Below are positions 4,648 to 26,430 of a DNA stretch of 29,694 nt, in pieces; the first letter of the stretch is position 1; each line of letters begins with the position of its first letter. The notes under the pieces were generated by a model. That model made no database searches. It saw nothing but the letters and a program-made list of their open reading frames with translations, and was not told where the DNA came from. The DNA is from a virus: positions 1-29,694 of the IMG/VR virus record IMGVR_UViG_3300027847_000980, one strand, 5' to 3'. The translations under genes were made by a program, and so were the position numbers.

Positions 4648-4649
4648 AT

Positions 4650-4876: not shown

Positions 4877-5542
4877 GCATTATTTCCACCTGATTTGACA
4901 GAAAGAGCAAGACAAAGAAGAAGCAGAGGATCTCGGTTACAGACTAGAGCAGCTCGTGGAGCAACTGAAGATACTGCAATGGATATTGCTAGTTCCAATA
5001 AGTGGCGAGAGCAATATACCCCACCACGTGCTAGAAATATTGCTGCAGCAGCGCAAGAATCTATACCTGCAACACCTGGCGCAGGGATGACTTCTGAACA
5101 AAGTCAAGCTGTAAGTGCAAACCAGAGGTTTCTTGCAGATAATCCGGACCTAGACCCAGGTAGTTATGAGCATGAATTTATTAGGGCAACGGAGCCACGT
5201 CGTAAGGACTATGCCCCGCAAGAAGGGGGAGCAGCAATTGGAACAGGAGTTTCACCTCACTGGGAACCTGTGCCCGACGTAGCACGAGTGGATCAAGAAA
5301 CCTATGACTTTTTACAGCACCTGAAGGAGCAAGGGTTGTACGAAGATAATCAGGAGATCCCAGATTGGATGCAAGATGCTATCGATGATCATTTAGCAGG
5401 AGTTTTAGATGAAGGTGATGTTTATGCGATGGAGCCAGAGATGGTTGTAGAAAATACACCACCCTCAATAAGATATGGAATAGCTTTACCTCCTGGTGCA
5501 AGAGGTGTATCACCAGTACCATACCAACCAAGATCTTACTAA
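4874..5542 (+). CDS. Unrecognised 222-aa protein with Arg-rich N terminus
   Basis: The start is well set by AGGAG at 4862-4866. Residues 1-55 are very basic (TERARQRRSRGSRLQTRAAR), residues 60-100 are Ala/Ser/Gln-rich, and the rest is acidic with many Pro and Asp/Glu, ending in a Pro/Arg tail. I see no catalytic motif, membrane segment or coiled coil, and the protein is likely partly disordered. Basic N termini of this kind could contact nucleic acid or the portal, but no family is recognised. It belongs to a run of three unknown genes between portal and the giant gene, consistent with internal or ejected virion proteins. Confidence 0.7.
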   Translation: MALFPPDLTERARQRRSRGSRLQTRAARGATEDTAMDIASSNKWREQYTPPRARNIAAAAQESIPATPGAGMTSEQSQAVSANQRFLADNPDLDPGSYEHEFIRATEPRRKDYAPQEGGAAIGTGVSPHWEPVPDVARVDQETYDFLQHLKEQGLYEDNQEIPDWMQDAIDDHLAGVLDEGDVYAMEPEMVVENTPPSIRYGIALPPGARGVSPVPYQPRSY

Positions 5543-7879: not shown

Positions 7880-10800
7880 ATGAGTAATGGTAGAAGGCCA
7901 GACGACCTTGTATCGTCTGACGTAATCGACAACGCATTAAAAAAAGTAAGAATAACATCTGGCCCTAGTTCTGTTACTCCTGCAAAAAGAGTCGGGAGTG
8001 TAGAGCAACCTATACCCGTTAGAACAGGTAGCCTCACTGAGATGGCAGAAGGCCAGCGTGAACAGGTAGAGGAAGAAAGAAGAGACTCGGTTGTTACTCA
8101 GGTCAAAGAACCAGATCTCGTTGCCTATCCTCCACTTGTAGAAGAGGAAGAGCCTGTACCAGGCTCTGATGTATCTTTATTAGACAAAACTCCACAAGAA
8201 ATTCAGGAAGAGGTACAAACAGTAGAAGAGCCTAGAAATGATGGTGCGTTTGCATGGTACCCGAAATTTCATGCGTCTGTTGATAAAGGTCAGGCGGATG
8301 AAATTTCTCCGGCTGTTATAACAGCGATTGTTCAGGCTAGGTCAGCCGGAGATGAAGAATATATATATGGGGATGCGTATGGTTTGTTTGGTATGGGCGC
8401 ATCTGAAAGAGCATATGTACAGCAAGTATTGCGCGAAACTGGAGAACTTGAACCCGATGAAGTAATGTCGGTCAAAGAATATAATGATTGGCGGGGCGAG
8501 CCCGATAACCAAATAAATTTTTATGCACCCATGATTCATGGGTTTGTGTTACGTGGAGTCGAAGCTGGAATTAAAGGGCGTGATCTGGCAGAGATGGTTG
8601 GTAAACAGGTGGAGTTACCAGGCTCTCGTGTTTTACCAGATGGAGCCTATGCAAAGGGATACGACACAGTTACTGCAACTGCGCAACAAAGAGTTAATGA
8701 AGAATTCCCCGATGGTGTTCCTGATAAGGTGCGTGTCGAAGCAGGAGTATTGTCACAAGACGCATTGCGAGAAGCAGGACTTAAAGTACCTACCAGACAG
8801 GTCGGGTTGTTTGAAAGTGAGTATCCTGAAGATGTAACACCACGCATGGTAACTACTGCCGAAGGTGAGCCGTTTGAAGCTGGTCGGTCACGCGAGTGGT
8901 ATGAAAAATACCTAATAGATCCTATATCTAGAGCATTTAGACCAGTCAAGCAATGGGCTGGATTGATGTATAACAGTTCACCACAAGGTAAGGCATCAGT
9001 TGAACTTGGGGCCGCAGCAGCAGATCGGTTGGGTGCTCTGGTGGTGACTAGTATTACAGCCGCTTCAGGCTCAGTTGGTGCGCCATTTTATGCGGTGGCT
9101 GGTTTTGCTAAAACCGATACTTCTAAAAGTGATAGCTTATGGCACTCTCTGGGAATGAAATCTGCCGGCGCATTTGAGGCAGTCAAACGTCGATGGGAGC
9201 GTGTAGGCGACCATTGGGCTCCGCAGTTTGTAAACAAAGAAGAAGACCAGAGTGGCTGGGAGTGGACCGTAGAGAAATGGAACGAACTAAAGGATCATGT
9301 GCCTGATGAAGGGTCTGGTCAAGATTGGTTTCAAACTGAGTCTATACCATTGGGATGGAAAGAATTTAAGCGAGCATTCATCCCCGGAACTCAGGGTTGG
9401 TCAGAAGAGAAATTAGACGAAGAGTGGAATAAGTCGCGTGATTGGTCTTACACTTTTATGTTCGACCCAGATGCTGAACGAGCTTACCTCAAGGATAAGG
9501 CACAGGTATTAGCGGAAGTTAATGCTCGTAGAGCAATGGACGGTTTAGGGCCGCGCTCACTTAGTTACCACGAAACTGATGAACTGAAATTAAGACACGA
9601 GGATCCATCTATAGAAATGGTGGGTGAAGTAGTGGGCGATCTTACCTGGCTTTTCCCGGGTAAGCTAATAAAAGGGGTGGGCTCACTTCTTAGTGAAAGC
9701 TTTGTAGCAAAAGGAATAAAGACTCAAGCACTAAAAATTCCTGCAATAAGATTATTAGTAACTGAACATATAGGTTCTACAGCCAATAAGCTTGCGGGAC
9801 GCGCAACAACTCCAGTTGAAGATATACTTTATGCTTATCGTAAGTTAGCGGAAGATCTTCTTCCGGACCTTGAGCCGGGTGAGGCATTAAAAAAGTTCAA
9901 TGATGCACAGGGACAATTATTTGACCCCAATACTTTCACGTCAACATATTCGGATTCGGGTGGTGTTGTTGAAGCATTAGAGTTGCTGTTGCGTAAAGGC
10001 AAGATAGTAGATCCTTTGACAAATGTCACCATTGATTTAACAGGAGATGAAATACCAGAATTAGTAAGTAAGTTGTGGCTTAGGCTAGGTAGTAGACCTG
10101 ATATGCCAACATGGACCTCAGTGCCGCATAAGTCCGGGTGGTTTTCCAGGCCGAAACTAAATCTTATAGCTCGTAATACAGAGAAAGTATTAGGTCCTCG
10201 CGCTACAGCACTTGGTCGTTCTGTACAGAAACGTCTAGAAACTGTTTATAAGATATATAAATATAATGACAACTTTTGGGATCACACAAGCGAGATAGCG
10301 AGGGATCCAGCAGAAGGATTTATAAAAGTCTTACGTGACCTTACAGAGCAGGCTCAGTCCCAAATGGGTGATGCCTGGGGTGGGTTAGATGATATTGGTA
10401 AGCAAGATGAAATCCTAAACTTGTTTAAAAAGGATGTGTCTAAAGAATTTAAAATGAAACATGGATTTGCTCAGGGAGGGAAAATCTATGACACGTTGGA
10501 AGCCAGTGACACGTATAGACAACTTATAGACGCAGAAACTATTAACCCATTCCTAATGGCAGGCCCACGCTTTTTCCGAGGCTTATGGATTGAATCTAAC
10601 TTAAGTGCTCGCCCAGGGTTTACAGCTAGGAATGTAATTGATTCAACCTTTAGGGCACTTACTTTCGGTGGTGGGGGTATCTTTAGAAGGTCACTAAAAA
10701 AGATAATGGCTGATACTCCTTTGGTAGACGAGATATTAGCAGGTCTTCAAAGAGGGGCTGGCACTGGTGCATCTGCCGCAATTCTACAGAAGTATGGGAG

Positions 10801-13800
10801 ATTACCTAGATTTTGGTCTCCGAAAGATTGGTGGACTGCCATAAGGGAAGTTACTGAGGCGGCCCAAAAAGAAGGTGCCAGCCCTGGAGCTATAGCTAAA
10901 CTCCCTTGGCCGGCAGGGCGTTGGGGTTGGGGAAGTAAATGGAGAGGTACCTGGAAGACACCGTGGGGCGATATGAATCTCACTTACTCTACGATGGTGG
11001 ATGTGATGCGGGATTGGAACGAGGCATTCGAGGTGATGTTGCGTATCAGGTTGTTTGATAAATTTTATCATAACTTGTTTGACGATATATTCAAATGGTG
11101 GCGCAAGGGCGTACTAAATAATCCGAATTTATCACGGGCATCTCGACAGAAACTGAAAGAAATGCTAGATAATTTGCCAGACAAAGAGGAAGATGTTGCA
11201 ATTGTGGTAGCACACTTTTTAGAATCGACAGGTGCGGACTTGTCAAATGCTTTGATTCCTAAAGAGGTAACAGCCCTCATAGACAATATGGATGTGGCGG
11301 ATCCTTTGAATATTCGTAGTGCTAAACAAATAGTTAGGGAAATAGCTGACGACCTTTACAGTGCATATAAGAAGAATAAAAAACTTGACCAAGCTGATGT
11401 TGATGAGATATTTAGCAAACGCCTTGAGGAACTACATAAAAACTTTGACGATGCATTAGATGATGCAAAAGCTACTAACATGCCAAAAGACAGTGATGAT
11501 GATGTATCTGGCTTCATTTCAGATGATCCTAAAGGTCCTAAAGATCCTAAAGATCCTAAAGATGACTTGGATTTTTCAAGTATGGGTGGTAAGGGAGATG
11601 GTGAGACAAAGAAAAAGCGAGGCGTAGAGCATACAAACAATGCTCAACATACTACAACTAAAGGCGGAGATCTTACCCAAGAAGCAGTTGCCAAACAAAA
11701 AGCAGAAGTACAAGAACAGATTGGAAAGGCTCAAAAGGCCAAAAAAGTTCCTGACGTAGAAGTTAAAGAGGTGATGTCTGACTATCAGCTAAACAGCACT
11801 AATAGCTACACAAAAATTCACAACGACAGTGTACTTGAGTACGGTAAGGGTAGTGTAGAGGCAAAACTATATTACAAAGTAAATCACACTATTAGGAGTT
11901 TATGGACGTTTTTGTTATCTCATCCTTCTGCAAATGCTAAAGCTGCGGATAAATTGTATTATGCTACACGAGCAAAAGATAATTTATACGGTTGGTTAGC
12001 ACCAAATGCAGCATTGAATACGGATGGGGCTCATACAGCTAAAGCCTTTATAAGAGCTCGTGATGTGATGGCACATGTAAATAAAACAGTAGCAGAGCTT
12101 CTAGATAAAAAGAACCTAAACCGCATGGACAACTTATTAAAACTAGCCACTTTAGAAGGATTTTTAGATAGCATGGGATGGAAATGGGATGCGCTAGGAA
12201 AAGCACAGTTTGAGTCGGGTGCACTTGCTGATGAAGCAGCGAAACTAATTAAAGACACAGGTTATGAAGTAGGTACATTGACCAAGCTAGACATTGAAGT
12301 GTTGAGGAATGGTGATCCAGCACTTTCGTCCTATAGAATAAAATGGGAATGGGACCCCAAAGGCGAGAAGAAAGGAACAGTTGTGAAGGGGAAAGAACAT
12401 TTTCATGCTCCCGATGAAGCAGATTTAATTCATTTGTCAGAAGGATGGGATAACTGGGTTGTAAGAGACGGGAAGTCAATTAAAGTTAGGGGGAAAAATG
12501 ACGGACTGGGTTATGCAAACTTCGAGGGAAAGGATATTATGGATGACCTCAATTATAAATATGATAATCAAGACGAAAATGTTGCAGATGCATTTCGCGC
12601 TATGGTAGACCCTAACTTTGAAGGAACCTTAGATGTTGCAGATGCAAATGAGAAAATGTTACAACAGGATATTGGCATAGGTACTCCCACTAATACCACG
12701 AAAACATCCCAGGCCTCTGGTCGTACATATCAAGAAATGCCTAACGACGAATTCAATACACTTATTGATAACATAGATGATGTTGATGAGCTAGGTCGTA
12801 TCGAAGATGCTATTCATCAAGAAGCTGGTGGGCCATCTACACAAGGAAAAATACTTAGTGATGTAGATGCAGTGAAAGCAAAAAGAATTGCTGATAGAAA
12901 GCATGTCCTGGAAAATCTAAGAAATGAGGGCAATATTAATGTAGAGGCACAAGCGCGAATTGTAAACACAAACGAACTACAGATACGAGAAGCCCAAACT
13001 GCATTGCAAAACATTAGGCAGGCTCTTGAGATTAGGATGGCAGACATTGAAAAAATGAGTCCTGATGTTGCAGACAAATACCTTGTAGACCATGCGCACC
13101 TAATGGATTTAGAGACATACGCCAATAAGGTTGGTGAGACACCGTATGGCAAGCCAATTTATCATAGCGACAAGCATGTTGATAAGGTCAATGCAGTATT
13201 AGATTTGAATACTCATGAGGTAATAGAAGAAGGCGTTTACGCAGAAGCCAGTGGGTACATTGAAGATGTTAGAGCATTAATTAAACCTGTTCGTGTTGCA
13301 GATTTAGAGTTTATTGCTTCATCTTATGGTATGCCATTCAAATATAAATTAGGAAGAATAACTAAAGACCAATACAGTGAACAGATCTTGACCTGGCTGG
13401 AGCTACGTCAACGAATGATGACTTGGGAGAAAGAGGCTAGTGGTGATTTGGTACGTCATATAACGAAAGATGGCGGGATGAGTGATGAAGTACGAGAATG
13501 GATGATCCAAACATTCAAGGGTTTGTATCCTGACGCAGAGGATTTTATAATTCCCCTCCAAAGCGTGACAGATGAACTTGTACTTATGCGTTACACAGAA
13601 GACCTTGTGGCATTTTATCGAGAAGGCAAGGTACTTGCAAATGAGTTTTCGATTTTAAAAAGCTATAGGGATAGAGTTGTAAAGGCAGTTAGAGATGGTA
13701 AACAGTTAAGTGATGATGTTATAAGAGCTACATTGCGTGCTGAAGATGCTTTGGTTGATCGATTCGACCAAAAGGCACTTGGTCTAAGCCTGAAACACGT

Positions 13801-16800
13801 CGATCTAGATGAACAAGAGGAAGCATTGAGTATCTTTAATAAGGTATTTATACCCGACCATGACTTGATGAGTGGCGCAAGAGCGATTGACGCGGGATAT
13901 AATTTGACAGAATTCTCGTTTACATCGCCAAATGAAATAAATAATTGGCTGGCTACTTCACTTGAAAGTCAACAATGGTTAGAAACATCAATTGCGATAG
14001 TCAAAGAAGACGATTTATATCGTATTGCTGTCAAGAATATAGATATGAAAAAAGCCCCTTGGCAAATGACAACTCCAGAGTTTCTAGTTTGGTGGACGGG
14101 TAGCCCAAAAGAAACCTTAGCAAGTTGGGGACTGGTACACATACCCCAAGAGCTTGCTCTGCCTGCGTATCGTACACGATTACAAATTAGGATAAATAGT
14201 TTAGATGATGCGAAAGCAATGTGGTCATCTAACTTTACAGAGGATGAAATAAAATTGTATGGGCTCTTACATAGTAATCGCCGTAAAGTATTAGACACTG
14301 CTATTGAGAGAGGCCATGATGTTGATGATAACTTCCTCAAAGCATATGATGGGCTTATCCAGCAACAGTCTGTACTAAGGCACCAAGGTTTTGAAAATGG
14401 CTTACCTATTATTCGCGTAGGCCGAGGTAAGACAAGAGTTCAGCCCACTAAAGAAATGCAGGGTTTGCCGTTCGTAGAGAAGTACAACAAAGAAACAGGA
14501 AGGGCTCAATTGTCATACCGGACATTAGATGAGTTTATTGCGATCTGGGACTTCATGGAGCCCGTGGGCACCAAAGGCAAGAAAGTGCTCCGAACAGGAT
14601 GGGGTGAACATCTGTGGCAAGATGATTATATAGGGCTCAAGACGACTAAGAAAAGAGGTGAGCCGATAAAAATTACGGACACTAAAGCCTTACCAAGAGT
14701 TATAGATCTTATTGCAAGTATTACTGATGTAATAATTAACTATACTCCTGATTATCAAATGCAGTCACTCATTAATGTGCGCAAAAACATTAGGCCAAAA
14801 CAGAGAAGAGTCATCAATGTCTTAACACAATTAGAAGATTTAAAATTTCAATATGCGAAAGAATCAGGTACACGCGAGATAGTAGAACAGGCTATTGATA
14901 ATGTCAAGCAAGCTAGGGATGACATTGAAAAAGTAATGATGTTATTGGACGACAGGATTGAGAAAAATTATCCATCTAATAGCTCATTTCAGATAGATGA
15001 ATTACGAAAGAAGGAAGGTATTACGCGCGTTATGGCGGGCATTGGTGATATGGATCCTTTGCAGGCTAAAATACAGCATGGCACAGGTTGGAGTTTAGCA
15101 GGGGGACCGACAAAACAACGTGGTCAACTTCCTATGCGTTCGCAAATAGATGAGATGCGAGCATACGTAAGAAAGCAGGGTGAGCCTGTAACTGCTAAGT
15201 ATAAAGATGCTCGCACATGGGCTTTGTTTGAATTGTTGAATGGAACTGGACTGCGTATAAGTGAAGTGAGAGATTTGCGGTGGAGTAATATTGTAGAACT
15301 CCCAAATGGAAACTTCGCAATCACAATCAAACAAACAGATAATCGGAGAGGTGTACAGATAACTTTAGATGAAGGGGCACAGAATGCCTTAGCGAAATTA
15401 CAAGAACGTGCCCAGCTTGGTATAGGAGTTCCTGCAGTTTCGGAAGAGACACTATTCGATACACATGTGTTTGTGAGAGAGAATGGAGAAAGATATAAGA
15501 ATAGTAGCGCATTAACTGGACACATATCAGATTCTGGCGGCGAAACTCAGTGGGGACTAAACGCAGAAAGTATAAAAAAATGGAAGGGCAAAACACCTTC
15601 TGACAAATTCTATGACAAGACAGGATCTCATCTCTATATCTGGCGGCCAGACCAGGAGTTGCATGCACATGACCTAAGACGGAATTATGCAGTTAAGGTA
15701 TTTTATAATACAGGCGGTGATATTGCGAAAGCACAAAATCAATTAGGCCATGAAGGACCAATAACAACTGTGTTGTATTATTTGCGCCGAGGTGGAGTGC
15801 CAGATAATATGTTGCAAGATGCTATCAAAGATAGTAAGTCAGGTACTGTTGACAAAATCCTCAAAGAGTTTACAGAGATGGTTGGCACTGAAGAGGGTAC
15901 TAAGGTAGCCAAGGCAGCGGAGAAAGCAATGCTGGCAAAGCAATTTGCGGCAATTAACTATCACCAAATAAAGATGTTGCAGCCGATTAATTTGAAAACT
16001 GCCAAGAACTTTGGAAAGATAAAAGAACGTGTAAAACGAAACCTCGAATACTTTTTTACCTACGACCATGCAGGGCAGCAAGCAACAAAAGCAGGTGAGA
16101 ATTTCAAAAATAAATTTAAGTCTATTATTCGTGTGATACTGGAGGACGAACAAGTTGCAAATCAGTTTTATGAGGAGGTTGCACGTAGAACACAAGGTTC
16201 ATTGAATGATATTCAGATGGGTCAAAAACTCATACACCAGGCCGGATTACGACGGATAGATGTAATGGATATGATTCCAATTACCTTGCGTGATGAGCCA
16301 CAGGATTTGGCAGGAATGGTACAAGCAGAGTGGATAGACCCTTGGTATCGAGTGAGAGATTTCGGTCAACAGAAAGGTGGTATGTCTACTCAAGACGTTC
16401 TGAAAGAGTATTTAGAAGAATTACAAGGAATAGCGGATCCTAGTGTAGGACGAAAAACCGTCAATTATCTTGAGTCTCCTAATGTTGATGCAATATCAGG
16501 CTGGCAACTAACAGATCAAAGCGGTAAGGTTGTAGAGTTTAGCCCAGTATATCTTACTAGAGAGGCAGCCGAGCAGGATGCATATTATTATGCGATGCGA
16601 AAAAACATAGCTCCTAAGATGACAGTAAAGGAAGTGGAGTTAGGAAGTAGCGCAGCCTGGGAAGACGTACTTCCGAATTATTATCGTAATTGGAGACGGT
16701 CTCAATGGTATCACAACAAAGAAGAGATATTACAATATGAGGCTTATCAAGATATAGTTGAAAACTATGAGTTATGGAATAGGGAACTGCCTGGTAAATA

Positions 16801-19800
16801 TGCGGCAGGGCTAAAAGATTTCCACCCACTTATTAATGATGATGCGCCTTTAGGGTATCGAAAGTTTTTGGCTGACCTAAAACGCCGTAATATGGGTCTT
16901 GCTGACCTAGAGGCAAATACGCCTCGGTATATTAAGCCTACTGATAAGGAAGCAGAAGCTCTTATACAGGCTGGTATAGAACATTCTGGTTATTGGAATC
17001 GTCAAATACAAACTGGTAAATCATTAGGGACTAAGAATAATCACCCTCCAGTACAGATGGGATTAAATCCTAAGTATAATAAACCACGACAATATATTGT
17101 AGTTGGCCCACGACATGCGTATGAAATGATTCCGGAAGAGGACTATATAGCCTACGTTGTAGATGCTCCGAAAGGTGTGGAAGAAGTGATTGATGAAAGC
17201 CTACAAAAGCAGGGCATTTTTGCACGGTATTTTCCACAAGATAACAAAATTAAATACCAATCAGAAAGCATGAAATACAATCCGACAATTAGAAATCATG
17301 AGATTGGGCATGCCTTAGTACACGATATGGTTGGTACTATAGATATAAATAAGACTCTATCTGATCAAAGTCTGCATCCATTGTTTAGGGAGTATGGTGA
17401 AGCATGGCATGGTGAAAGTCATGAACCAATTAGAAACTTCCTGGACGAGGACAAAGCAGAAGCATTTTGGAAAGATTTAGAGTTATGGCTTACTGACCCA
17501 GACAGTTTAGATAAACCGGATATTGTATCCGTCTTCAAAAAGCATTTTGGAGATGTACATAAAGATCTAAGTCCCATAAGAAAGCAACCGGCTCAGTATG
17601 ATCCGGGTATACATGGCTTGAATTATGAAGGTGTAAAAGTAAAATATGCTAACAAACCATATGTCTTAACAAACAATACACATTATTATCCGTCTGAAGA
17701 TTGGATTGCGCCTCTTAGTGATATTGGAATGTGGCATGACCAACCTCCAATTTATGGTAAGAAAATTATACTTACGAGAGGTAGGCATCAGTGGGGTGCT
17801 CATTATGCTATTGTAGATCTAATGCAATTAAAGCCCCAATATCAATGGGTGACAAGCCCTATCAAGACCGGAGTCGGCAAGTATTCCCTTGAGCTTAATC
17901 CCGAGGTAAATCCGCGATTCCTGCGTGACTTTCCAATTGATGTTGATGCAAGTGCCAGTTCTATTAGAGCAACAGCACAGAACTATGTACCAGAGTATGG
18001 ACTTAGTAGTGAATTAGATGCCCTTAAAGGCATACTGATTGATACGAATGGTAATGTTTTGAATAACCATAGAGATGTATTGGTACATCAATATTGGGAT
18101 TTACCCGAAGTTTTGTTGCACAATAAAAAAGAGCAATATAACAAAGAGTTATTCCAGAGTCTTACTGCCAGGTTTGGTATAGATGAAAGTGAACTAGCAA
18201 AACTTCAGGGACAGACTCGCACAATGGAACACCCAGTTTTAGTGCGTATGCTTAACCCTTTAGATGAGGCTAGTATGCAAGATTTGATAGACAGAGTTAA
18301 TCCAAGAGTGATAGCACCACCCGATGGAAGTGCACTCAAAAAGATAATAGAGCGTGAAGCAAAGCTTATAGAGAGTGCACTAGATGAAGGGGTATTACCA
18401 GGGCTCAAACAAGATGATGAGGTAATTATTACTTTTGATGACTTTATATCGCACTTGGCAAATAAGCCAGATGCTTTGGGTGGAAGGAAGTTCATCAAAG
18501 GAAATCAATATCAGGTAGAGCCTCAGTTCCGAGAGAGTATCTGGCGTACTATGGCAATTGTACTCTTTCCGGAAGAGCAGGCAGATTTTGTGTTAGATAT
18601 GGTAGATTTCCGAAAACTATCACCCGATGAACGTGTACATAACTTAATGGATATTATCACCAATGAGTTTGGGTGGCTGTTGAAGTATAAAAAAGACCAC
18701 CCTGATTTGTATAGTAAATATATAGCTGGCAAAGATGGTATAGGTCTCTTGTATGATATCGAAGAGGCATCGCGAATATTAGCAGCGACGAAATACTTAA
18801 TGCCTGATAAGGATATTCGATACGGTATCAAACAGATATTACAACCAGAGACTGTAGACGGAGTAATGAGTCCGATAAGATTGATCCAAGATGCGACCCA
18901 GCCAGATGAGATTATATCGAAAAATGCTATATTGTTAGCAGAACATACTGCCAGTCATGGGCGTTTTGCTGGTAGTAACTTGAGTATATTGTCTAAGGCA
19001 CTAAAAGAAGAATTTGACAGGCAAGTGAGACAAAGAGACCCACAATTACTACAATCGTTAGAGGACATAATAAAAAATGGTATCGAAAGAGCAGAAAAAG
19101 AAATCGCAAACCAATCAGTTACACAACGAACCTACGCAGCAGGAGCAGCAGACGCAGCAATCGTCTCAACAAGAAATACCCAAGCAGTTAGTGATGGGCT
19201 TGAAACAGTTGAAAGAACTAATAGAGCCAAGCTGGCGAAGTATGCAGAAGAAATAGCAAAAGCGAAAAAATTGACGGCAGAGCAAATACAGTATATGGCT
19301 CTAATGCATAGAGTAATGCCTGATGTGCTGGGAGAAATCGATCCCGACTATATTGCTCGTACAGCATCAAACCTTTCAGAAATAGCATTAGGTCCAGAGC
19401 AAGTCAAAGCGAGATTCGGTGAGAGAACTTTAGGGGAGGTTGCGGTCTCATGGAAACATATGGCTGACAATATTGAGGACAATGTTTTTGTAGAATGGCA
19501 TCGCCAGATTCTCGATATTGTTAATGAATATGGTCCACAAAAGCCAGTGACTGAAGGTTCGTACGACACTATATACTACACGAAAGTGAAGGCTGATGGT
19601 CCGTGGGACAAATTTGCCTTAGAGAATGCAGACAAAGCAGATATTGTAGAGGCATTTGCTGAGTGGGTAGACAAAGGTGCTAAGGAAGCTTGGATTGAAT
19701 TATCTGATATGGAAAAGACGATGTATCATAGAGCAAAAGAATGGTTAAATAGGGTACAAAGTGAGTCAGGTCTTTTCAGTATTCCACATCAACATCAGGA

Positions 19801-22800
19801 TGGTAAAGCTGCGCCTTATGAAGAGTTGATTGAGTTGTGGAAGCATTTGGATGTGTATCTATTAGCTCATGGTTATACTGGTGCACCAATCGCCTTTGGT
19901 GGAAAAGATGCAGCCCAAGCTGTATGGAGAGTAACGGGTGCAGGAGATGGCTCACCAATGGGTTTTGAATATACAACTTATGGGAAGGAATTACGTGAAA
20001 AGATAATAAAAATGTTTATCGCCAAACAGCAAGTAGGGACGGTGAATGCTTCAGTACCAAAGTGGTCGCAAGAAATATTAGAAGGATTGGCTGATCAAAT
20101 TGTAGACCTAGTACATTTATACAATAATGGAATAATTAATCAGGCTTTTGGTAAAGCGAGACCGAAGGGTGGCATACGCACAAGACTAGCACAAGCTGAT
20201 GTTGGAGTAAGAAAGGCTAAAGATCAACACCCGACAACTATTTCCAACCAAAAACATATTGCTGATAGTATCGGCATGTGGTTAGATATGATTTCTAAAG
20301 CACCAGAATATGGCGGATTGGGTATACCATTAGGGGATGAAAATATATGGGAACTATTACAAATAGTATCAGCAAGGGATGTTTTTAGGACAACAAAACA
20401 AGAAGCAAGAGAGACATTAGTAGAGAAATTGAACTATTATCATTATGCTAACCTCTCAGATAATATTAATCAAATTACTAAGACGGGCCAGGTTCCTCCT
20501 TCATTAAAACAGCTTAGTGAGAAGAAGAAATTAGCTGCTATTACAGGAAGTAAATATGCAGACCCTGAAGATACACTCAAAGCTATCAATATTCAGTTAA
20601 GATTCGCACACTCTGAATTATGGGATGCAATGAGTGCTAAGGGTATCGATGAAAAGCTTAGATTGATCGGTCCAAACCCTATGCAAATTGAGGATATAAA
20701 CACACCTGTTCCGCAACAACTGGTTGACGGATTGGATAATAGTGTGGAGTGGGGATTACTTTCGGAAGAACAGGCTGCTACTTGGGCAAATGAAGCGATA
20801 GCATGGAATGGGCAGGGTGATACTTTTGCATATCATCCTAATAAAAACCAAAATCCATTACCACATAATGAGGCTACCGAACAGGAGCTGCTATATGTCA
20901 AAGAAGAGATTGAAAAAGCATTGCGGCAATGGCATCGAGACTTGGTGGGACCGGAGGGTAATCTCAATCAGGGAATCGAATTACCTATAGAAGAAGAACA
21001 TGAAATCCGTGAACAGTTGAAGAGTGCATGGATACAAGAAGGAGGATTATTAGATCAGTACCGGGCAATTAAGCATACTGCTATTTATGGAACAAAAGAT
21101 ACAAGTCAGTTGAGTAAAGTCTTAATGCCTGAAGCACCACGATCTGATTTAGAACAAGTTGTTGATGCATATGTTGATAGGAGTTTGGACGAGTTTAAGT
21201 TGGGACCTGACCCGTATGATATGGATTTATGGCAAAGTCGCTATGGTCCTGGAAGTGACAATTGGGAAACAAGTAAAAATAAAATGTCTGAAACATTTCA
21301 AGACTTAGCTGAAAGAGTTGATCTAGAGGACCAACCTGCAGAAGTTGTAATGAGTCAAAGATTTGACAAACATGTTGAGCGAGTAAAGCAGGACCCCATG
21401 AAATGGATGGACTGGAGAACTTTGAGATCTACAATCGATGCTCAGGAAGGGTTGGCTTCATTAGAGGGTGCTGTTAGCAGGTTGACCCCTGAAGAATTAG
21501 CTCTACTGGCTCCTGGATATTACAATTGGGGCTTTGGCATTCCTTTAGTCGGCGATAGGGTAGTGCTAGGGGCTACTAAACCGAGAAAGATACATGGTGC
21601 GACTAAGCTGGTAGGTAATGCGATGGTTGATTATCAAACTAATACCAATCTTGATCAGGTGATGAAGACAATCTTTCCGTTTTGGATATTCCCTACCAGG
21701 TCCATCAAGTTCTGGCTGGGCGAGTTAGCGGCCAAGCCTAAGATCCTTTCTACATGGTCGCAAATACAAGGTATGTCAGAAAGAATGGCACATGATGTTG
21801 GGGCCACTGATACTCGAGGGCATCAGTTGCCGAGATTTAGGGGTAACATAAATCTGACAGGTACAAATTGGTGGTGGAATCCTACTGCTCCACTGTCGTT
21901 TACACAAGCTCTCCCTGGCGCAAGAAATATTTATGGGTTAGCAGATTCTGAAGCACCTATATTCAAGAGATTAGCTACGTATCTTTATGCTTTTGGTCCG
22001 GCAACAGGGTTTCATCTAGCACCGTGGATCTCAATCCCAATGCATCGAATGGGCTGGTTAGACGAAAACGAATTTCCACAACGGTCTTTATTAGGACAGG
22101 CTGACTTAATACCTGAATGGCATCAAAGAGATATATTGAAGAAAGTACAAGATTCGCTTTGGTATAGTATACGACCTGATGCTACCTGGACTCCTGAAGT
22201 AAGCTGGAAGGATTTCCTTATAGAAAGGCAGGTACTAATCAATCTTAATCAAGAGATTGAGCCCATGCATGAACTTGGCAAGCAGGAGAAAGTGAAAGAA
22301 GCGGAGATGGCCATCTTACTACGTACTGGCGAGAGATGGAGTACGGCCAGACAAGAGCTAGAGCAAACTGATTATTTTGCTAGGATAGTAGGATACTTAT
22401 CTGGTACGTATGGAAAGAAGTTTCATAAGGGCGAAGCAGCATTGTATGAGGCCCGGGATGAAGTTGGTCGATTACGTAGACAAATATCTTTAGATGCGAA
22501 CTATGAAGAGTTTTATAAGGATTACCGTTATAACACAGCAGATGGATTGACCTATGGTTTATACAAAGACATCAGTTGGGTAACTGATGAAGATGGTAAG
22601 CAATTGTATGGCCAAGCACGATGGGATGAGGTCTCGAAGAACATTGCATATCAACAACAAATGGCGGCCAAGATAGCACGAGAAGGAGCTAACAGAAGGA
22701 TGTTAGAAATTAGGCTGTCGGAATTACCTATCGGCTCACCCTGGGAGGCGAAAGAAGAGATTTATCAGGACTATGAAGAAATACAGAAATCTATTTTGAA

Positions 22801-24514
22801 GTCATTCCCTGATGTTGTGTACCAATGGGGTCCATACAATAAGAACGACGAAACTATACGAGAGCATGTCGTAGATAAATGGATGAAAATTGTGGGTGAG
22901 GGTAGGCCTTTCAACTGGAATAGAGAAGAGCAGGATTGGACTCAATTCCAGAATAGTATTGTGGAATGGGAAGATGACATACCAAATATAGGTAAACTAA
23001 ATATTGACCGCTTGTTTATGGAGTTAGCTGGCGAGAAACTATTGGAGCCTTTGAAAGATTATGAGGGTCAACCTTTATACCAGAAAGATGAAGCAGGCAA
23101 TGTATTGTTAGATGCGAAAGGAGAGCCTGTACCAGAAACAATCTTTGAATCAGTACTAGGTAAGAGAATAGAGGTCAAGAAAGCTTTATTGGCAATGGCA
23201 ACATCAGCCGAATGGAACAAGTGGGACATTGATGGTGACTCATTGGATGATGCACTCAATAGAGTATGGCTTGATAATTATGCTGGAGCATTTTATGACA
23301 CCATTGATGCAGGTGGTCTTAACGAAGCTGAAGGGTCAGAGAGAGAACAGCTTGAGCGGGCTTGGATAGAGAAATATCCTGGTGGGCCTAGTACAGTTGA
23401 TCTTACTGGTTGGATAAGAACAATTTATGGTGACAAGTGGTCAGACGAACAAATTGCTTTACATAGATATGGTTCTGGTGTAGCTACAAGAGAAGAAAGA
23501 AGTGAGATGCAAGCTACTGCAAGGCAAAAAGCGGCCAATGAAGTATATAAGTGGTATGGCTGGGTTGGACCACGAGGTGCTAAATCAGAATTCTATGATA
23601 CCTTAGAAAAAATTGACGAAAGGGATGGTACTGAATGGACTGAGGTATTGGGGGACTTCTTGGATCCCAGTCGAAAACGTACATCAAGTGCTCAAGGTTT
23701 GTTTACATACTGGTCCGATAAATTCTGGACAGATTTTTATAATGCAATGCGTGAGGTATCTCTAGTTTTAGACTTACAGGCACCCACAGACGAGGAGTTG
23801 GAGGAATGGGTGCTGGCAGAACAATTGAATGATCAATTCAATAGGTGGAGAGAACTTGATTATGGTCCTAATTGGGATGGGTTGAATGCATTGTATTACA
23901 ATAAAACTAGGTCTGAGCAGTTGGACTGGCGTAAAGAAAACCCCGGTCTGTGGCAACGGTTACAAGATGGTTGGACGATGAAAGATGCTTGGGGGGAACA
24001 ACATCCAGCGTGGCAAAAATTCTTTGACCCTGATGTATATCATGGTACTGAAACAGCTAGATCGTCTATCTCTGGTTACTCCGGAGTTGGTTCCACAGTA
24101 ACATTTGGTGGTGAAAACTGGAGACATTCCTTTGCACCATCAGCAGCCTTAGATAGCTATAAAGGTGTTAGTATCAGCAAGATCATTCAAGGTTTAGAAA
24201 GGCCTCAGACTCCAGGGCAATGGCCTACGTTAGAAGTATCACAATTAGCATTAGAAGAGTTGTTGGCTGGTAAAGTCAGTGATACAACAGAAGAATACCT
24301 GAAGAAATTACACCAGAGAGTAGCATCTTATTCTCCATATGAGACGTTCTTGAAGCAACTCAGGGATTTGGCACGTTCAGTATTGGGAGATATCACTAAA
24401 GAAGAAGATGATTGGATTTGGAACAGGGAGGGTGCAAGCACGGATACTGTATCCCCTGAAATGCCAGTGACACCCGGTGGTAGGGAAGATACATTTACCC
24501 CACAAAGGTCGTGA
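7880..24514 (+). CDS. Giant 5,544-aa multidomain protein (large polyvalent protein type)
   Basis: One uninterrupted frame of 5,544 codons starts at ATG 7880, with AGGA (7869-7872) overlapping the upstream stop, and ends at TGA 24512-24514. The product is roughly 600 kDa. Visible in order: an acidic disordered N terminus (1-115); a lytic-transglycosylase-like segment (about 128-270); an Ala/Gly-rich, weakly hydrophobic stretch (about 370-410); IEMVGEVVGDLTWLFPGKLI (about 577-596); SNLSARPGFTARNVIDSTFR (about 906-925), a motif recurrent in giant phage proteins; a DPK repeat linker (1216-1227); a coiled coil (about 1668-1730); a tyrosine-recombinase domain (2419-2640); a HEIGH zincin motif (3140-3144); an LPD38-like segment (about 4560-4700); and a long Trp/Glu-rich helical C terminus. 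Polyvalent proteins are known to combine such enzymes and are thought to enter the cell with phage DNA. N4-type virion RNA polymerase was considered, but I found no T7-like polymerase motifs. Location between portal and capsid genes supports a packaged, ejected protein (inference). Confidence 0.85.
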   Translation: MSNGRRPDDLVSSDVIDNALKKVRITSGPSSVTPAKRVGSVEQPIPVRTGSLTEMAEGQREQVEEERRDSVVTQVKEPDLVAYPPLVEEEEPVPGSDVSLLDKTPQEIQEEVQTVEEPRNDGAFAWYPKFHASVDKGQADEISPAVITAIVQARSAGDEEYIYGDAYGLFGMGASERAYVQQVLRETGELEPDEVMSVKEYNDWRGEPDNQINFYAPMIHGFVLRGVEAGIKGRDLAEMVGKQVELPGSRVLPDGAYAKGYDTVTATAQQRVNEEFPDGVPDKVRVEAGVLSQDALREAGLKVPTRQVGLFESEYPEDVTPRMVTTAEGEPFEAGRSREWYEKYLIDPISRAFRPVKQWAGLMYNSSPQGKASVELGAAAADRLGALVVTSITAASGSVGAPFYAVAGFAKTDTSKSDSLWHSLGMKSAGAFEAVKRRWERVGDHWAPQFVNKEEDQSGWEWTVEKWNELKDHVPDEGSGQDWFQTESIPLGWKEFKRAFIPGTQGWSEEKLDEEWNKSRDWSYTFMFDPDAERAYLKDKAQVLAEVNARRAMDGLGPRSLSYHETDELKLRHEDPSIEMVGEVVGDLTWLFPGKLIKGVGSLLSESFVAKGIKTQALKIPAIRLLVTEHIGSTANKLAGRATTPVEDILYAYRKLAEDLLPDLEPGEALKKFNDAQGQLFDPNTFTSTYSDSGGVVEALELLLRKGKIVDPLTNVTIDLTGDEIPELVSKLWLRLGSRPDMPTWTSVPHKSGWFSRPKLNLIARNTEKVLGPRATALGRSVQKRLETVYKIYKYNDNFWDHTSEIARDPAEGFIKVLRDLTEQAQSQMGDAWGGLDDIGKQDEILNLFKKDVSKEFKMKHGFAQGGKIYDTLEASDTYRQLIDAETINPFLMAGPRFFRGLWIESNLSARPGFTARNVIDSTFRALTFGGGGIFRRSLKKIMADTPLVDEILAGLQRGAGTGASAAILQKYGRLPRFWSPKDWWTAIREVTEAAQKEGASPGAIAKLPWPAGRWGWGSKWRGTWKTPWGDMNLTYSTMVDVMRDWNEAFEVMLRIRLFDKFYHNLFDDIFKWWRKGVLNNPNLSRASRQKLKEMLDNLPDKEEDVAIVVAHFLESTGADLSNALIPKEVTALIDNMDVADPLNIRSAKQIVREIADDLYSAYKKNKKLDQADVDEIFSKRLEELHKNFDDALDDAKATNMPKDSDDDVSGFISDDPKGPKDPKDPKDDLDFSSMGGKGDGETKKKRGVEHTNNAQHTTTKGGDLTQEAVAKQKAEVQEQIGKAQKAKKVPDVEVKEVMSDYQLNSTNSYTKIHNDSVLEYGKGSVEAKLYYKVNHTIRSLWTFLLSHPSANAKAADKLYYATRAKDNLYGWLAPNAALNTDGAHTAKAFIRARDVMAHVNKTVAELLDKKNLNRMDNLLKLATLEGFLDSMGWKWDALGKAQFESGALADEAAKLIKDTGYEVGTLTKLDIEVLRNGDPALSSYRIKWEWDPKGEKKGTVVKGKEHFHAPDEADLIHLSEGWDNWVVRDGKSIKVRGKNDGLGYANFEGKDIMDDLNYKYDNQDENVADAFRAMVDPNFEGTLDVADANEKMLQQDIGIGTPTNTTKTSQASGRTYQEMPNDEFNTLIDNIDDVDELGRIEDAIHQEAGGPSTQGKILSDVDAVKAKRIADRKHVLENLRNEGNINVEAQARIVNTNELQIREAQTALQNIRQALEIRMADIEKMSPDVADKYLVDHAHLMDLETYANKVGETPYGKPIYHSDKHVDKVNAVLDLNTHEVIEEGVYAEASGYIEDVRALIKPVRVADLEFIASSYGMPFKYKLGRITKDQYSEQILTWLELRQRMMTWEKEASGDLVRHITKDGGMSDEVREWMIQTFKGLYPDAEDFIIPLQSVTDELVLMRYTEDLVAFYREGKVLANEFSILKSYRDRVVKAVRDGKQLSDDVIRATLRAEDALVDRFDQKALGLSLKHVDLDEQEEALSIFNKVFIPDHDLMSGARAIDAGYNLTEFSFTSPNEINNWLATSLESQQWLETSIAIVKEDDLYRIAVKNIDMKKAPWQMTTPEFLVWWTGSPKETLASWGLVHIPQELALPAYRTRLQIRINSLDDAKAMWSSNFTEDEIKLYGLLHSNRRKVLDTAIERGHDVDDNFLKAYDGLIQQQSVLRHQGFENGLPIIRVGRGKTRVQPTKEMQGLPFVEKYNKETGRAQLSYRTLDEFIAIWDFMEPVGTKGKKVLRTGWGEHLWQDDYIGLKTTKKRGEPIKITDTKALPRVIDLIASITDVIINYTPDYQMQSLINVRKNIRPKQRRVINVLTQLEDLKFQYAKESGTREIVEQAIDNVKQARDDIEKVMMLLDDRIEKNYPSNSSFQIDELRKKEGITRVMAGIGDMDPLQAKIQHGTGWSLAGGPTKQRGQLPMRSQIDEMRAYVRKQGEPVTAKYKDARTWALFELLNGTGLRISEVRDLRWSNIVELPNGNFAITIKQTDNRRGVQITLDEGAQNALAKLQERAQLGIGVPAVSEETLFDTHVFVRENGERYKNSSALTGHISDSGGETQWGLNAESIKKWKGKTPSDKFYDKTGSHLYIWRPDQELHAHDLRRNYAVKVFYNTGGDIAKAQNQLGHEGPITTVLYYLRRGGVPDNMLQDAIKDSKSGTVDKILKEFTEMVGTEEGTKVAKAAEKAMLAKQFAAINYHQIKMLQPINLKTAKNFGKIKERVKRNLEYFFTYDHAGQQATKAGENFKNKFKSIIRVILEDEQVANQFYEEVARRTQGSLNDIQMGQKLIHQAGLRRIDVMDMIPITLRDEPQDLAGMVQAEWIDPWYRVRDFGQQKGGMSTQDVLKEYLEELQGIADPSVGRKTVNYLESPNVDAISGWQLTDQSGKVVEFSPVYLTREAAEQDAYYYAMRKNIAPKMTVKEVELGSSAAWEDVLPNYYRNWRRSQWYHNKEEILQYEAYQDIVENYELWNRELPGKYAAGLKDFHPLINDDAPLGYRKFLADLKRRNMGLADLEANTPRYIKPTDKEAEALIQAGIEHSGYWNRQIQTGKSLGTKNNHPPVQMGLNPKYNKPRQYIVVGPRHAYEMIPEEDYIAYVVDAPKGVEEVIDESLQKQGIFARYFPQDNKIKYQSESMKYNPTIRNHEIGHALVHDMVGTIDINKTLSDQSLHPLFREYGEAWHGESHEPIRNFLDEDKAEAFWKDLELWLTDPDSLDKPDIVSVFKKHFGDVHKDLSPIRKQPAQYDPGIHGLNYEGVKVKYANKPYVLTNNTHYYPSEDWIAPLSDIGMWHDQPPIYGKKIILTRGRHQWGAHYAIVDLMQLKPQYQWVTSPIKTGVGKYSLELNPEVNPRFLRDFPIDVDASASSIRATAQNYVPEYGLSSELDALKGILIDTNGNVLNNHRDVLVHQYWDLPEVLLHNKKEQYNKELFQSLTARFGIDESELAKLQGQTRTMEHPVLVRMLNPLDEASMQDLIDRVNPRVIAPPDGSALKKIIEREAKLIESALDEGVLPGLKQDDEVIITFDDFISHLANKPDALGGRKFIKGNQYQVEPQFRESIWRTMAIVLFPEEQADFVLDMVDFRKLSPDERVHNLMDIITNEFGWLLKYKKDHPDLYSKYIAGKDGIGLLYDIEEASRILAATKYLMPDKDIRYGIKQILQPETVDGVMSPIRLIQDATQPDEIISKNAILLAEHTASHGRFAGSNLSILSKALKEEFDRQVRQRDPQLLQSLEDIIKNGIERAEKEIANQSVTQRTYAAGAADAAIVSTRNTQAVSDGLETVERTNRAKLAKYAEEIAKAKKLTAEQIQYMALMHRVMPDVLGEIDPDYIARTASNLSEIALGPEQVKARFGERTLGEVAVSWKHMADNIEDNVFVEWHRQILDIVNEYGPQKPVTEGSYDTIYYTKVKADGPWDKFALENADKADIVEAFAEWVDKGAKEAWIELSDMEKTMYHRAKEWLNRVQSESGLFSIPHQHQDGKAAPYEELIELWKHLDVYLLAHGYTGAPIAFGGKDAAQAVWRVTGAGDGSPMGFEYTTYGKELREKIIKMFIAKQQVGTVNASVPKWSQEILEGLADQIVDLVHLYNNGIINQAFGKARPKGGIRTRLAQADVGVRKAKDQHPTTISNQKHIADSIGMWLDMISKAPEYGGLGIPLGDENIWELLQIVSARDVFRTTKQEARETLVEKLNYYHYANLSDNINQITKTGQVPPSLKQLSEKKKLAAITGSKYADPEDTLKAINIQLRFAHSELWDAMSAKGIDEKLRLIGPNPMQIEDINTPVPQQLVDGLDNSVEWGLLSEEQAATWANEAIAWNGQGDTFAYHPNKNQNPLPHNEATEQELLYVKEEIEKALRQWHRDLVGPEGNLNQGIELPIEEEHEIREQLKSAWIQEGGLLDQYRAIKHTAIYGTKDTSQLSKVLMPEAPRSDLEQVVDAYVDRSLDEFKLGPDPYDMDLWQSRYGPGSDNWETSKNKMSETFQDLAERVDLEDQPAEVVMSQRFDKHVERVKQDPMKWMDWRTLRSTIDAQEGLASLEGAVSRLTPEELALLAPGYYNWGFGIPLVGDRVVLGATKPRKIHGATKLVGNAMVDYQTNTNLDQVMKTIFPFWIFPTRSIKFWLGELAAKPKILSTWSQIQGMSERMAHDVGATDTRGHQLPRFRGNINLTGTNWWWNPTAPLSFTQALPGARNIYGLADSEAPIFKRLATYLYAFGPATGFHLAPWISIPMHRMGWLDENEFPQRSLLGQADLIPEWHQRDILKKVQDSLWYSIRPDATWTPEVSWKDFLIERQVLINLNQEIEPMHELGKQEKVKEAEMAILLRTGERWSTARQELEQTDYFARIVGYLSGTYGKKFHKGEAALYEARDEVGRLRRQISLDANYEEFYKDYRYNTADGLTYGLYKDISWVTDEDGKQLYGQARWDEVSKNIAYQQQMAAKIAREGANRRMLEIRLSELPIGSPWEAKEEIYQDYEEIQKSILKSFPDVVYQWGPYNKNDETIREHVVDKWMKIVGEGRPFNWNREEQDWTQFQNSIVEWEDDIPNIGKLNIDRLFMELAGEKLLEPLKDYEGQPLYQKDEAGNVLLDAKGEPVPETIFESVLGKRIEVKKALLAMATSAEWNKWDIDGDSLDDALNRVWLDNYAGAFYDTIDAGGLNEAEGSEREQLERAWIEKYPGGPSTVDLTGWIRTIYGDKWSDEQIALHRYGSGVATREERSEMQATARQKAANEVYKWYGWVGPRGAKSEFYDTLEKIDERDGTEWTEVLGDFLDPSRKRTSSAQGLFTYWSDKFWTDFYNAMREVSLVLDLQAPTDEELEEWVLAEQLNDQFNRWRELDYGPNWDGLNALYYNKTRSEQLDWRKENPGLWQRLQDGWTMKDAWGEQHPAWQKFFDPDVYHGTETARSSISGYSGVGSTVTFGGENWRHSFAPSAALDSYKGVSISKIIQGLERPQTPGQWPTLEVSQLALEELLAGKVSDTTEEYLKKLHQRVASYSPYETFLKQLRDLARSVLGDITKEEDDWIWNREGASTDTVSPEMPVTPGGREDTFTPQRS
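8261..8690 (+). other. Lytic-transglycosylase-like domain, catalytic Glu apparently missing
   Basis: Residues about 128-270 of the giant protein follow the order of SLT-type lytic transglycosylases: a helix SPAVITAIVQARSAG (143-157), then DAYGLFGM (165-172), which matches the A-x-G-L-x-Q-M motif, then a helix NQINFYAPMIHGFVLRG that would match the 'N-I-x-A-G-x-x-Y-L' helix. In active enzymes the first helix ends in Q-E-S; here it reads Q-A-R-S, with Arg154 where Glu is expected. E159 or E160 could substitute. This is fold-level resemblance judged by eye. Confidence 0.4.
11525..11560 (+). repeat. In-frame 9-bp tandem repeat encoding DPK/GPK units
   Basis: Four consecutive copies of GATCCTAAA, the second with one change (GGTCCTAAA), encode DPK-GPK-DPK-DPK, residues 1216-1227 of the giant protein. 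The unit preserves the frame. The surrounding 60 residues are Asp/Lys/Gly-rich, so this is a flexible hydrophilic linker between two larger parts of the protein. Confidence 0.9.
15134..15805 (+). other. Tyrosine recombinase (phage integrase family) catalytic domain inside the giant protein
   Basis: Residues 2419-2640 match the catalytic domain of tyrosine recombinases, which break and rejoin DNA through a 3'-phosphotyrosine. ALFELLNGTGLRISEVRDLR holds Arg I (R2459). AITIKQTDNRRGVQIT is the beta-hairpin with the catalytic Lys (K2484). HAHDLRRNYAV gives H2597 and R2600 of H-x-x-R. LGHEGPITTVLYYL gives H2624 and the nucleophile Y2633, nine residues later as in XerC/D and integrases. All six residues are present, so the domain may be active. 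The gap between Arg I and H-x-x-R (138 residues) is somewhat long. I see no clear N-terminal SAM-like core-binding domain; residues about 2300-2418 are helical and may replace it. There is no internal stop, and flanking frame and codon use continue smoothly. Confidence 0.85.
17180..17530 (+). other. Zincin metallopeptidase domain (HEIGH) inside the giant protein
   Basis: NHEIGHALVHDMV (from residue 3139) contains HExxH with H3140, E3141 and H3144, embedded in a hydrophobic helix as in zinc metallopeptidases. A plausible third ligand lies about 50 residues downstream in EDKAEAFWKDLELWLTDP (E3194), which resembles the 'E-x-x-A-E-x-F' helix of gluzincin-like enzymes. Zincins (MPTase-PolyVal) are recurrent parts of large polyvalent phage proteins. 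Likely roles are self-processing of the giant chain or attack on host proteins; both are inference. Confidence 0.65.
21560..21980 (+). other. LPD38-like segment near the C terminus of the giant protein
   Basis: Residues about 4560-4700 include DQVMKTIFPFWIFPTRSIKF (about 4592-4611) followed by a helix LGELAAKPKIL. A helix ending in 'P-F-W-x-F-x-R' and then a helix ending before 'x-x-P' is the pattern I associate with the large polyvalent-protein-associated domain LPD38. The function of that domain is unknown. The assignment is from memory of the motif and needs a profile search. Confidence 0.45.
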
Positions 24515-24594: not shown

Positions 24595-25377
24595 ATGCCT
24601 GAAGGATTGACTCAACAAACTTCTGAAAGTCCTGCCACAAGTGGTGTAAAGTATATACCACAGGGAGCACAATCAGAAGGGGCAGATCCTGCCGCGCAAG
24701 CGGGAGCATCTCCCACAGCCACACCGGCGCAAAGAAGCCCCGGTAGCACTGGAGAGCCACAGTCAGAAGCCGTTGATGCAGGACGTTTACAGACTCAGGT
24801 TCGCCAGATGCAAACCCAGCTTGATAGAGCTAGGACTCAACTCTCTGCCTCGGACCGTGCTTTACGAGAACGGGAACAGCAGTGGGGTACAGAGCGAGAA
24901 GAGCTATCGCGCACTGTAGAAAATATGCAAATGTCGGACATGTCTGAAACTGAGAAGGTTGCGTATGAACGGGATGTGTACCGTCAGAGAGCGGAAGAAG
25001 CTCAAACACAGGTACAAGATGCCCAGTATAGGGCAGAATATTCAGACGCAATGCAACAATGGCGTGCCTATTATGGTCAAATGGGTGTTCCGTCTAACGT
25101 GTTAGATAGTTCTTCAATAGAGAATATGCAACACTCTGCACTAAGATGGACAAATACCCAATTGAAGGCTGCACGGCAGGCACCACAGCAAGAAGCTGTG
25201 GCACAGCCAGAACAGCCACAAAACAATCGGGTACAACCTCCCCAAGTTACCACTGCGGTACCACAGGGAGCAAGTCCCGGACAAAAAAGATGGAACGACA
25301 TTCCTTACGAGGAATGGGATGCCATCTATAAGAAGGCAGAGAGAGGACAAATATCGTCCGATCAAATGCCACGATAA
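24595..25377 (+). CDS. Scaffold-like protein (prohead scaffolding)
   Basis: This 260-residue protein starts after a strong AGGAGG (24583-24588, 6-nt spacer). Residues 1-60 are Gln/Ala/Pro/Ser-rich. Residues about 63-155 form a long coiled coil (QTQVRQMQTQLDRARTQLSA and onward). A Gln/Pro linker follows, and the last 30 residues (RWNDIPYEEWDAIYKKAERG and beyond) form a short charged helix. A coiled-coil, Gln/Glu-rich protein with a small helical charged C terminus directly upstream of the major capsid gene is the standard profile of a phage scaffold, whose C terminus binds the inner capsid surface. No protease domain is present. The call rests on architecture and position rather than on sequence similarity. 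Confidence 0.72.
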   Translation: MPEGLTQQTSESPATSGVKYIPQGAQSEGADPAAQAGASPTATPAQRSPGSTGEPQSEAVDAGRLQTQVRQMQTQLDRARTQLSASDRALREREQQWGTEREELSRTVENMQMSDMSETEKVAYERDVYRQRAEEAQTQVQDAQYRAEYSDAMQQWRAYYGQMGVPSNVLDSSSIENMQHSALRWTNTQLKAARQAPQQEAVAQPEQPQNNRVQPPQVTTAVPQGASPGQKRWNDIPYEEWDAIYKKAERGQISSDQMPR

Positions 25378-25401: not shown

Positions 25402-26430
25402 ATGGCAACTCAGACTCAAAGTACTCTGAGTGATTCTGTCAAAACCCAATATTTGCGACGACTGTTGATGCGGGCAGTGCCCCGCTTGATTCATGGCCGC
25501 TTCGGCGAGAAGGCCAATGCTTCCGGTTACGGTAGCCTCGAATGGCGTAAATTCGGTGCTATTACTGTAGCTGCAGGCGGACCTTCCGCTCTTAGTGAAG
25601 GCGTGACTCCTGAAAGCGAGAGCACTTCTGTTTCAACTGTTACTGCAACACCTGCGTTCTATGGTTCGTACCTACAGCACACAGATGAACTTGAGATGAC
25701 ATCGTATGATCCGATTGTCTCCGAGTTCTCTAATGTTCTAGGCGAACATGCAGGATTGGCAATTGACACACTTATTCGTGAAGACCTACTGGGCTCTTCG
25801 CCTACCACGCGTTTCGCTGGTGCGGCTACTGCCCGGACAAATATAGACTCCACCAATGACAAGATCTCGTACATTGATTTCCTCAAGGCCGTTGCGGTCC
25901 TGATGGCAAACAGTGCACTTCCTGTTGATGGTGCGCGATATGCTTGCATATTGCATCCGCATAGTTATGCGACACTTATGAATACAGACAGGTTCGTTAA
26001 TACGTTCCTTCACGCTTCACCACGTGACAACGACAGTAACCCAATGCGCACAGGCTTTATGGGCACATTCTTGAATGTAGACATCTACATTTCTGGTAAT
26101 GCCCGTGAGTATGCAGATGGTGGTACCGGTAGTGCAGATGTTTACATTGCCTTGTTCATCGGACGTGAGGCATATGGTGTGGTTGGTGTTGGTAACATAG
26201 ATCCACGTGATGTGGATGGGGCCGGAAACGATCCCTTTGCCGTAAATACTGGCAAGGGTCGCTCACTTGCTCCAGTTGATTTGATCGTGAAACCTTTAGG
26301 TTCTGGTGGTGCAGAAGATCCACTAAACCAACGTGGAACAGTAGCATGGAAAGCGGCTCATGATACAGCTATGCTAAACGCAAGCTGGATTATCAGCCTT
26401 GAACATGCTAATGAATTTACGGATGCATAG
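25402..26430 (+). CDS. Major capsid protein, N4-gp56 family (HK97 fold)
   Basis: The 342-residue product starts after GGGAGA (25388-25393). The N-terminal part follows the N4-gp56 family closely: YLRRLLMRAVPRLIHGRFGE, then SLEWRKFGAITVAAGGPSAL, then SEGVTPESESTSVSTVTATP, then YLQHTDELEMTSYDPIVSEF and GEHAGLAIDTLIREDLL. The order 'L-x-x-R-L-L-x-x-A, R-F-G-x-K, F-R-R-F, L-x-E-G-V-T-P, D-P-I-x-x-E, G-x-x-A-x-x-x-D-T' is characteristic. The protein builds the icosahedral shell around the scaffold. Codons look richer in C-ending choices (GGC, CGC, TTC, GCC) than in neighbouring genes, as expected for the most highly expressed virion gene. Length agrees with the family, and no N-terminal prodomain is apparent. 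Confidence 0.92.
   Translation: MATQTQSTLSDSVKTQYLRRLLMRAVPRLIHGRFGEKANASGYGSLEWRKFGAITVAAGGPSALSEGVTPESESTSVSTVTATPAFYGSYLQHTDELEMTSYDPIVSEFSNVLGEHAGLAIDTLIREDLLGSSPTTRFAGAATARTNIDSTNDKISYIDFLKAVAVLMANSALPVDGARYACILHPHSYATLMNTDRFVNTFLHASPRDNDSNPMRTGFMGTFLNVDIYISGNAREYADGGTGSADVYIALFIGREAYGVVGVGNIDPRDVDGAGNDPFAVNTGKGRSLAPVDLIVKPLGSGGAEDPLNQRGTVAWKAAHDTAMLNASWIISLEHANEFTDA

Follow-up and report, generated by a model that had tools for sequence, protein, structure and literature searches.

A tyrosine-recombinase catalytic domain in a giant protein encoded among the head genes of a tailed phage

Polyvalent proteins, of which the DdrB-like ParB domain is a hallmark, are predicted to be injected together with DNA; phages encode as many as 35% of them, and packaging of these is likely (PMC5512222). 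DdrB of phage P1 is located in the head of the virion, where a processed form was found (PMC5512222). The domains carried by polyvalent proteins are mostly host-directed or anti-defence domains (PMC5512222). The gene of gp44, an ejection protein of phage 80alpha, lies between the portal and scaffold genes; the protein must be packaged in the virion and was proposed to promote circularization of the injected 80alpha genome, for which, according to the authors, the recombinase is not known (PMC7290940). The virion of PhicrAss001 stores a cargo of approximately 5.5 MDa, with single proteins of up to 277 kDa (PMC10172136). How headful-packaged linear phage genomes are circularized right after entry is a partly open question.

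In this study, we describe a giant gene that is located among the virion genes of a portal-terminase phage, as judged from a capsid match, a terminase large subunit, and a portal gene recognized by its place, and that encodes a tyrosine-recombinase catalytic domain. The DNA analyzed, hereafter the window, is the whole stretch of 29,694 nucleotides of the IMG/VR virus record IMGVR_UViG_3300027847_000980.

The giant gene and its neighborhood

A preliminary description of this DNA had noted one unbroken frame of 5,544 codons. The frame is present at positions 7880..24514 of the + strand, with an ATG start and no internal stop, and the encoded protein of 5,544 amino acids has a predicted mass of approximately 629 kDa. 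Two near-identical contigs, L023 and L003, extend the window on either side to approximately 41 kb in total; L023 contributes an intact terminase large subunit upstream, and the genes that L003 adds on the downstream side encode a tail-tip fibre protein and another lysozyme. From upstream to downstream, the genes are those of the terminase (in L023), probable portal protein (2839..4647, + strand; assigned from its size, its place, and a weak profile match), giant, probable scaffold protein (24595..25377, + strand; place and composition), and major capsid protein (25402..26430, + strand; phrog_1357, 3e-41), the gene of the last being located approximately 0.9 kb downstream of the giant gene. 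Additional head-tail genes are present within the window.

Several further features of the giant protein were recorded. The N-terminal conserved region (residues 97–371; 8168..8992, + strand) contains a QARSxGDE motif and has no known family match; a lytic-transglycosylase identity of this region, suspected by eye, was not supported by any family. The best conserved C-terminal part covers residues ~4541–5514 (21500..24421, + strand). A HEIGH motif at 17297–17311 (residue 3140), between the recombinase domain and the ParB-like region, could belong to a zincin-like peptidase; the giants of the relatives G005 and G006 do not carry HEIGH. A defence-system family search gave no match.

The neighborhood holds other observations of its own. 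The genome has two phage-lysozyme genes, one of the endolysin type at 217–915 beside the terminase and one at L003:12328–13029 after the tail genes. The overlapping gene pair at 903–2803 corresponds to one fused frame in G005 (contig L044) and G014 (contig L042). Upstream of the terminase, the adjacent genes L023:1402–2697 and L023:2660–4042 share an N-terminal stretch, MGKYDR..WL..MEEAQAPDYIP..VQEQYQARATPT, and diverge afterwards; the shared stretch is possibly a common delivery tag, and the second gene carries a HEFTH zincin-like motif. In regards to inverted repeats with core-site geometry (Xer- or lox-like dyads), their number in the window, which is part of an incomplete genome, was not above that in shuffled sequences. 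A dyad at 26877–26902, between two late genes, reads GGGCATCATC-TGAGAT-GTTGATGCCC and is kept at the equivalent place in the relatives L005–L012, where both arms change in step. Its core CATCTGAGATG is invariant and no T-run follows it; the dyad is probably an RNA hairpin.

The recombinase domain and its conservation

The preliminary description had placed a complete tyrosine-recombinase catalytic domain at 15134–15805 and had suggested a PF00589 profile search. The Pfam family PF00589 (Phage_integrase) matched positions 15200..15781 of the + strand (residues 2441–2634) when the contig was scanned (E-value 2.4e-16). A 521-residue piece of the giant protein gave 55.5 bits (E-value 8e-15), well over the cut-off of 27.1. 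The catalytic core therefore lies inside the proposed interval but is narrower. PHROG integrase families matched the domain at 1e-13, and the closest NCBIfam families were XerC, XerA, and XerD, all far under their equivalog cut-offs (43.7 bits against 335 for XerC). A search of the PDB with a profile of four homologous domains matched XerA, an XerC-like archaeal recombinase, and the integron integrase IntI4; HIV reverse-transcriptase matches in the same list were weak (E-value ~0.06–0.2) and were regarded as chance.

The six residues previously named as catalytic were all found at the numbers given: R2459 (15254..15256), K2484 (15329..15331), H2597 and R2600 in an H-x-x-R motif (HDLR, 15668..15679), H2624 (15749..15751), and Y2633, which is directly followed by Y2634 (15776..15781), all on the + strand. 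The Arg, the Lys, the His and Arg of the motif, and the second His are present in 4/4 giants. Type IB topoisomerases do not have the first His of HxxR, and this identity was excluded by the presence of HxxR in 4/4 giants. In regards to the presumed nucleophile, Y2633 had been proposed. It occupies the usual spacing of the tyrosine nucleophile (H+9), and the column reads Y, Y, Y, and N in the window, G005, G006, and G014, respectively, so that two of the three relatives have Tyr there. In G014, however, the Tyr is located at H+10, which matches the position of Y2634. Because of this shift by one residue, the nucleophile in the window may be either Y2633 or Y2634. No match to the Pfam core-binding (SAM-like) domain was detected upstream in any of the four members at E-values up to 5, in agreement with the apparent lack of a canonical core-binding domain noted before.

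Relatives were reached through the capsid and portal proteins in IMG/VR, which yielded a discrete group of approximately 20 contigs; a scan of IMG/VR with the window recombinase domain alone gave no matches. At the sensitivity used, the group was absent from INPHARED phages, PLSDB plasmids, and GTDB species genomes. Four records (G005, G004, G006, and G014) cover the place of the recombinase, and each of them has it in frame with the rest of the giant. G004 is a near-copy of G005 (99.7% identical DNA) and was counted with it once, which leaves three independent lineages besides the window. The giant homologue of G005 has 5,684 amino acids, and those of G006 and G014 have at least 4,205 and at least 2,839, respectively. 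The PF00589 scores were 40.3 for G006 and 29.5 for G014, over the cut-off of 27.1, and 20.7 for G005 and G004, below it. The search for homologous giants in viral metagenomes that had been proposed earlier thus recovered the same domain in separate IMG/VR records, and the in-frame domain in three further independent lineages rules out a misassembly or a gene fusion as its origin. The domain had also been called an insertion. This description, and with it a recent insertion, was not supported: in every covering relative the homologous flanks run collinear with the domain, and the GC content is flat across it. The collinearity indicates that the domain seems to be ancestral to the giant-protein family rather than newly inserted.

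The giants were 21–43% identical between phages, whereas the portal proteins were 84–96% and the capsid proteins 83–97% identical. The contrast in rate between the giant gene (7880–24514) and the portal (2839–4647) and capsid (25402–26430) genes is striking. In the middle of the giant, identity was higher in the recombinase domain (32–34%) than in its flanks (21–28%). The four-sequence domain alignment has 25 invariant positions out of 246, which include R2459, K2484, H2597, R2600, and H2624. If catalytic positions are assumed to be no more constrained than the remaining alignment positions, the probability that R, K, H, R, and H are all invariant in four sequences is approximately 7e-6, or 3e-5 on ungapped columns. 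The E-value and this conservation exclude a chance match.

Two AlphaFold models computed from four-sequence alignments had mean pLDDT values of 46.6 and 50.8, which are of low confidence. The order of helices and strands in these models fits the tyrosine-recombinase family, and helices were predicted upstream of the domain, likewise with low confidence. In a Foldseek search with the domain model, the top PDB matches were all tyrosine recombinases, with Cre first (E-value 4.9e-6, TM ~0.3), and the best viral matches were integrases; VLF-1 was a weak match among the viral folds. VIA aligned 98 residues to Cre (Z 6.6, 3.3 A), mainly in the first half of the domain; VIA matches of the 521-residue model comprised long helices only and were discarded. 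Since neither model is confident, the active site was not seen assembled in them.

A region of the window giant (residues ~3280–3480; 17717..18319, + strand) is collinear with the DdrB-like ParB domain (PF18763) of the relatives. This domain was matched in G006 at 2.2e-7, over the Pfam cut-off, and weakly in G005, and it was not matched in the window, where the region is degenerate and has lost the DGxxR-type motif. The G006 chain therefore carries both PF00589 and PF18763 over their cut-offs, and the window giant has only the PF00589 match over a cut-off.

Possible roles of the domain

The explanation that we tentatively prefer, with slightly less than even confidence, is that a protein of the polyvalent type in the virion delivers an active tyrosine recombinase that acts on incoming phage DNA. 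The giant would reside inside the virion of a tailed phage: it would be produced late, along with the head proteins, enclosed in the capsid, and pushed out into the host either before the DNA or with it. The presence of the DdrB-like ParB domain in the chain of a relative and the place of the gene in the head module point to ejection in the manner of polyvalent proteins, and packaging and ejection of the giant are probable, although a chain of 629 kDa must pass the tail. The domain itself is quite likely to be catalytically active, as judged from its conserved residues. It would use the Arg-Lys-His-Arg-His-Tyr set to cut and rejoin DNA through a phosphotyrosine bond, and DNA recognition would come from other parts of the giant chain. 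Given packaging, ejection, and activity, the incoming phage genome is the most likely substrate, with somewhat better than even prospects, because the recombinase would arrive ready-made. Cre circularizes P1 DNA, and the incoming genome may similarly be circularized or resolved by recombination at repeated sites near its ends. The fullest form of this proposal, in which a virion recombinase within an injected protein of 630 kDa circularizes, resolves, or integrates the genome at entry, before viral expression, is possible but doubtful. The packaging of gp44, whose gene has a similar place, the large virion cargo of PhicrAss001, and the lack of a recognized separate integrase gene among the open reading frames listed for the approximately 41 kb agree with the preferred explanation. 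The lack of a Pfam core-binding match, the low confidence of the models, the lack of an excess of dyads, and the shifted Tyr in G014 speak against it.

The enzyme could instead act late, resolving or trimming concatemers or multimers at packaging and staying in the head as a by-product. VLF-1, a weak viral fold match of the domain, is presumed to act in this way; the giant gene is located in the late head module, and the intact terminase large subunit encoded nearby would hand over the DNA. However, concatemer cutting by terminases does not normally involve a recombinase, and the ParB-type domain in G006 fits delivery into the host better. We consider late action unlikely. It is rather unlikely, in turn, that the domain serves host attack or counter-defence by acting on host DNA or replicons after injection, for instance at dif-like sites or on plasmids. 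Such a role would agree with the nearest families (XerC, XerA, and XerD), with the very fast evolution of the giant beside the head genes, which resembles that of conflict proteins, and with the mostly host-directed or anti-defence content of polyvalent proteins (PMC5512222). No conserved host target is known for it, however, the surface diverges apart from the catalytic residues, and the score falls far short of the XerC equivalog cut-off.

A captured recombinase might also have been kept as a DNA-binding or structural module only. Two of the five domain-bearing sequences (G005 and its near-copy G004) are under the Pfam cut-off and the tyrosine is shifted in G014, but the five other catalytic residues are invariant at 23–31% identity in the domain alignment. 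A non-catalytic role is disfavoured and appears quite improbable, because the catalytic residues were kept while the adjacent ParB motif decayed in the window. In regards to lysogeny, the ejected domain of a temperate phage could be a virion-delivered integrase that integrates the genome; the PHROG matches are integrases, and no separate integrase gene was recognized among the open reading frames listed or scanned in the window, L023, and L003 (approximately 41 kb). However, a pattern-limited search of 84,980 species genomes found no provirus with these giants, and no repressor-type gene was recognized. These results leave this role very little probability.

If the incoming phage genome is indeed the substrate of the delivered recombinase, the question of circularization would be directly answered for one lineage, and DNA recombination would join the activities that phages deliver ready-made. 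The domain could also be a source of a recombinase with an uncharacterized site specificity. Because the active site is conserved within an otherwise fast-diverging chain, the idea is testable by simple assays. A recombinase in an ejected protein or in a giant protein of the polyvalent type was not found in the open-access literature. The preliminary description had likewise cited none in polyvalent or ejected virion proteins, and the terms "recombinase", "integrase", "resolvase", and "transposase" are absent from the main text of the 2017 survey of these proteins by Iyer et al. (PMC5512222).

Comparison with known recombinases and packaged proteins

The domain shares the catalytic residues, their order, and their spacing with XerC, XerA, XerD, Cre, and phage integrases, and both profile and fold matches connect it to these enzymes. 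Known tyrosine recombinases are free proteins of ~300–450 amino acids with an N-terminal core-binding domain, whereas the recombinase of the giant begins ~2,440 residues into a chain of 5,544 amino acids and has no recognized core-binding domain. VLF-1 of baculoviruses is a relative of tyrosine recombinases and a nucleocapsid component. The VLF-1 proteins of baculoviruses and nudiviruses, which gave weak fold matches, therefore resemble the domain of the giant in their family, but VLF-1 is small and free-standing, and its virus infects eukaryotes.

In regards to packaged phage proteins, gp44 of 80alpha resembles the giant in the place of its gene between portal and scaffold. It differs from the giant in that it binds DNA ends and is not a recombinase. 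The RNA-polymerase-associated proteins of PhicrAss001 are likewise very large and have enzymatic parts, and they belong to a short-tailed phage. Their function is transcription and not recombination, and their packaging was shown by mass spectrometry, whereas that of the giant is deduced. The polyvalent proteins of the P1 DdrB type are, like the giant, very large and encoded alongside the virion genes of portal-terminase phages; their multidomain character is matched over cut-offs in G006. The DdrB-like ParB domain is common to them and one relative of the giant (G006), and its motif is degenerate in the window. Compared with the polyvalent proteins described in PMC5512222, the giant adds a tyrosine-recombinase catalytic domain.
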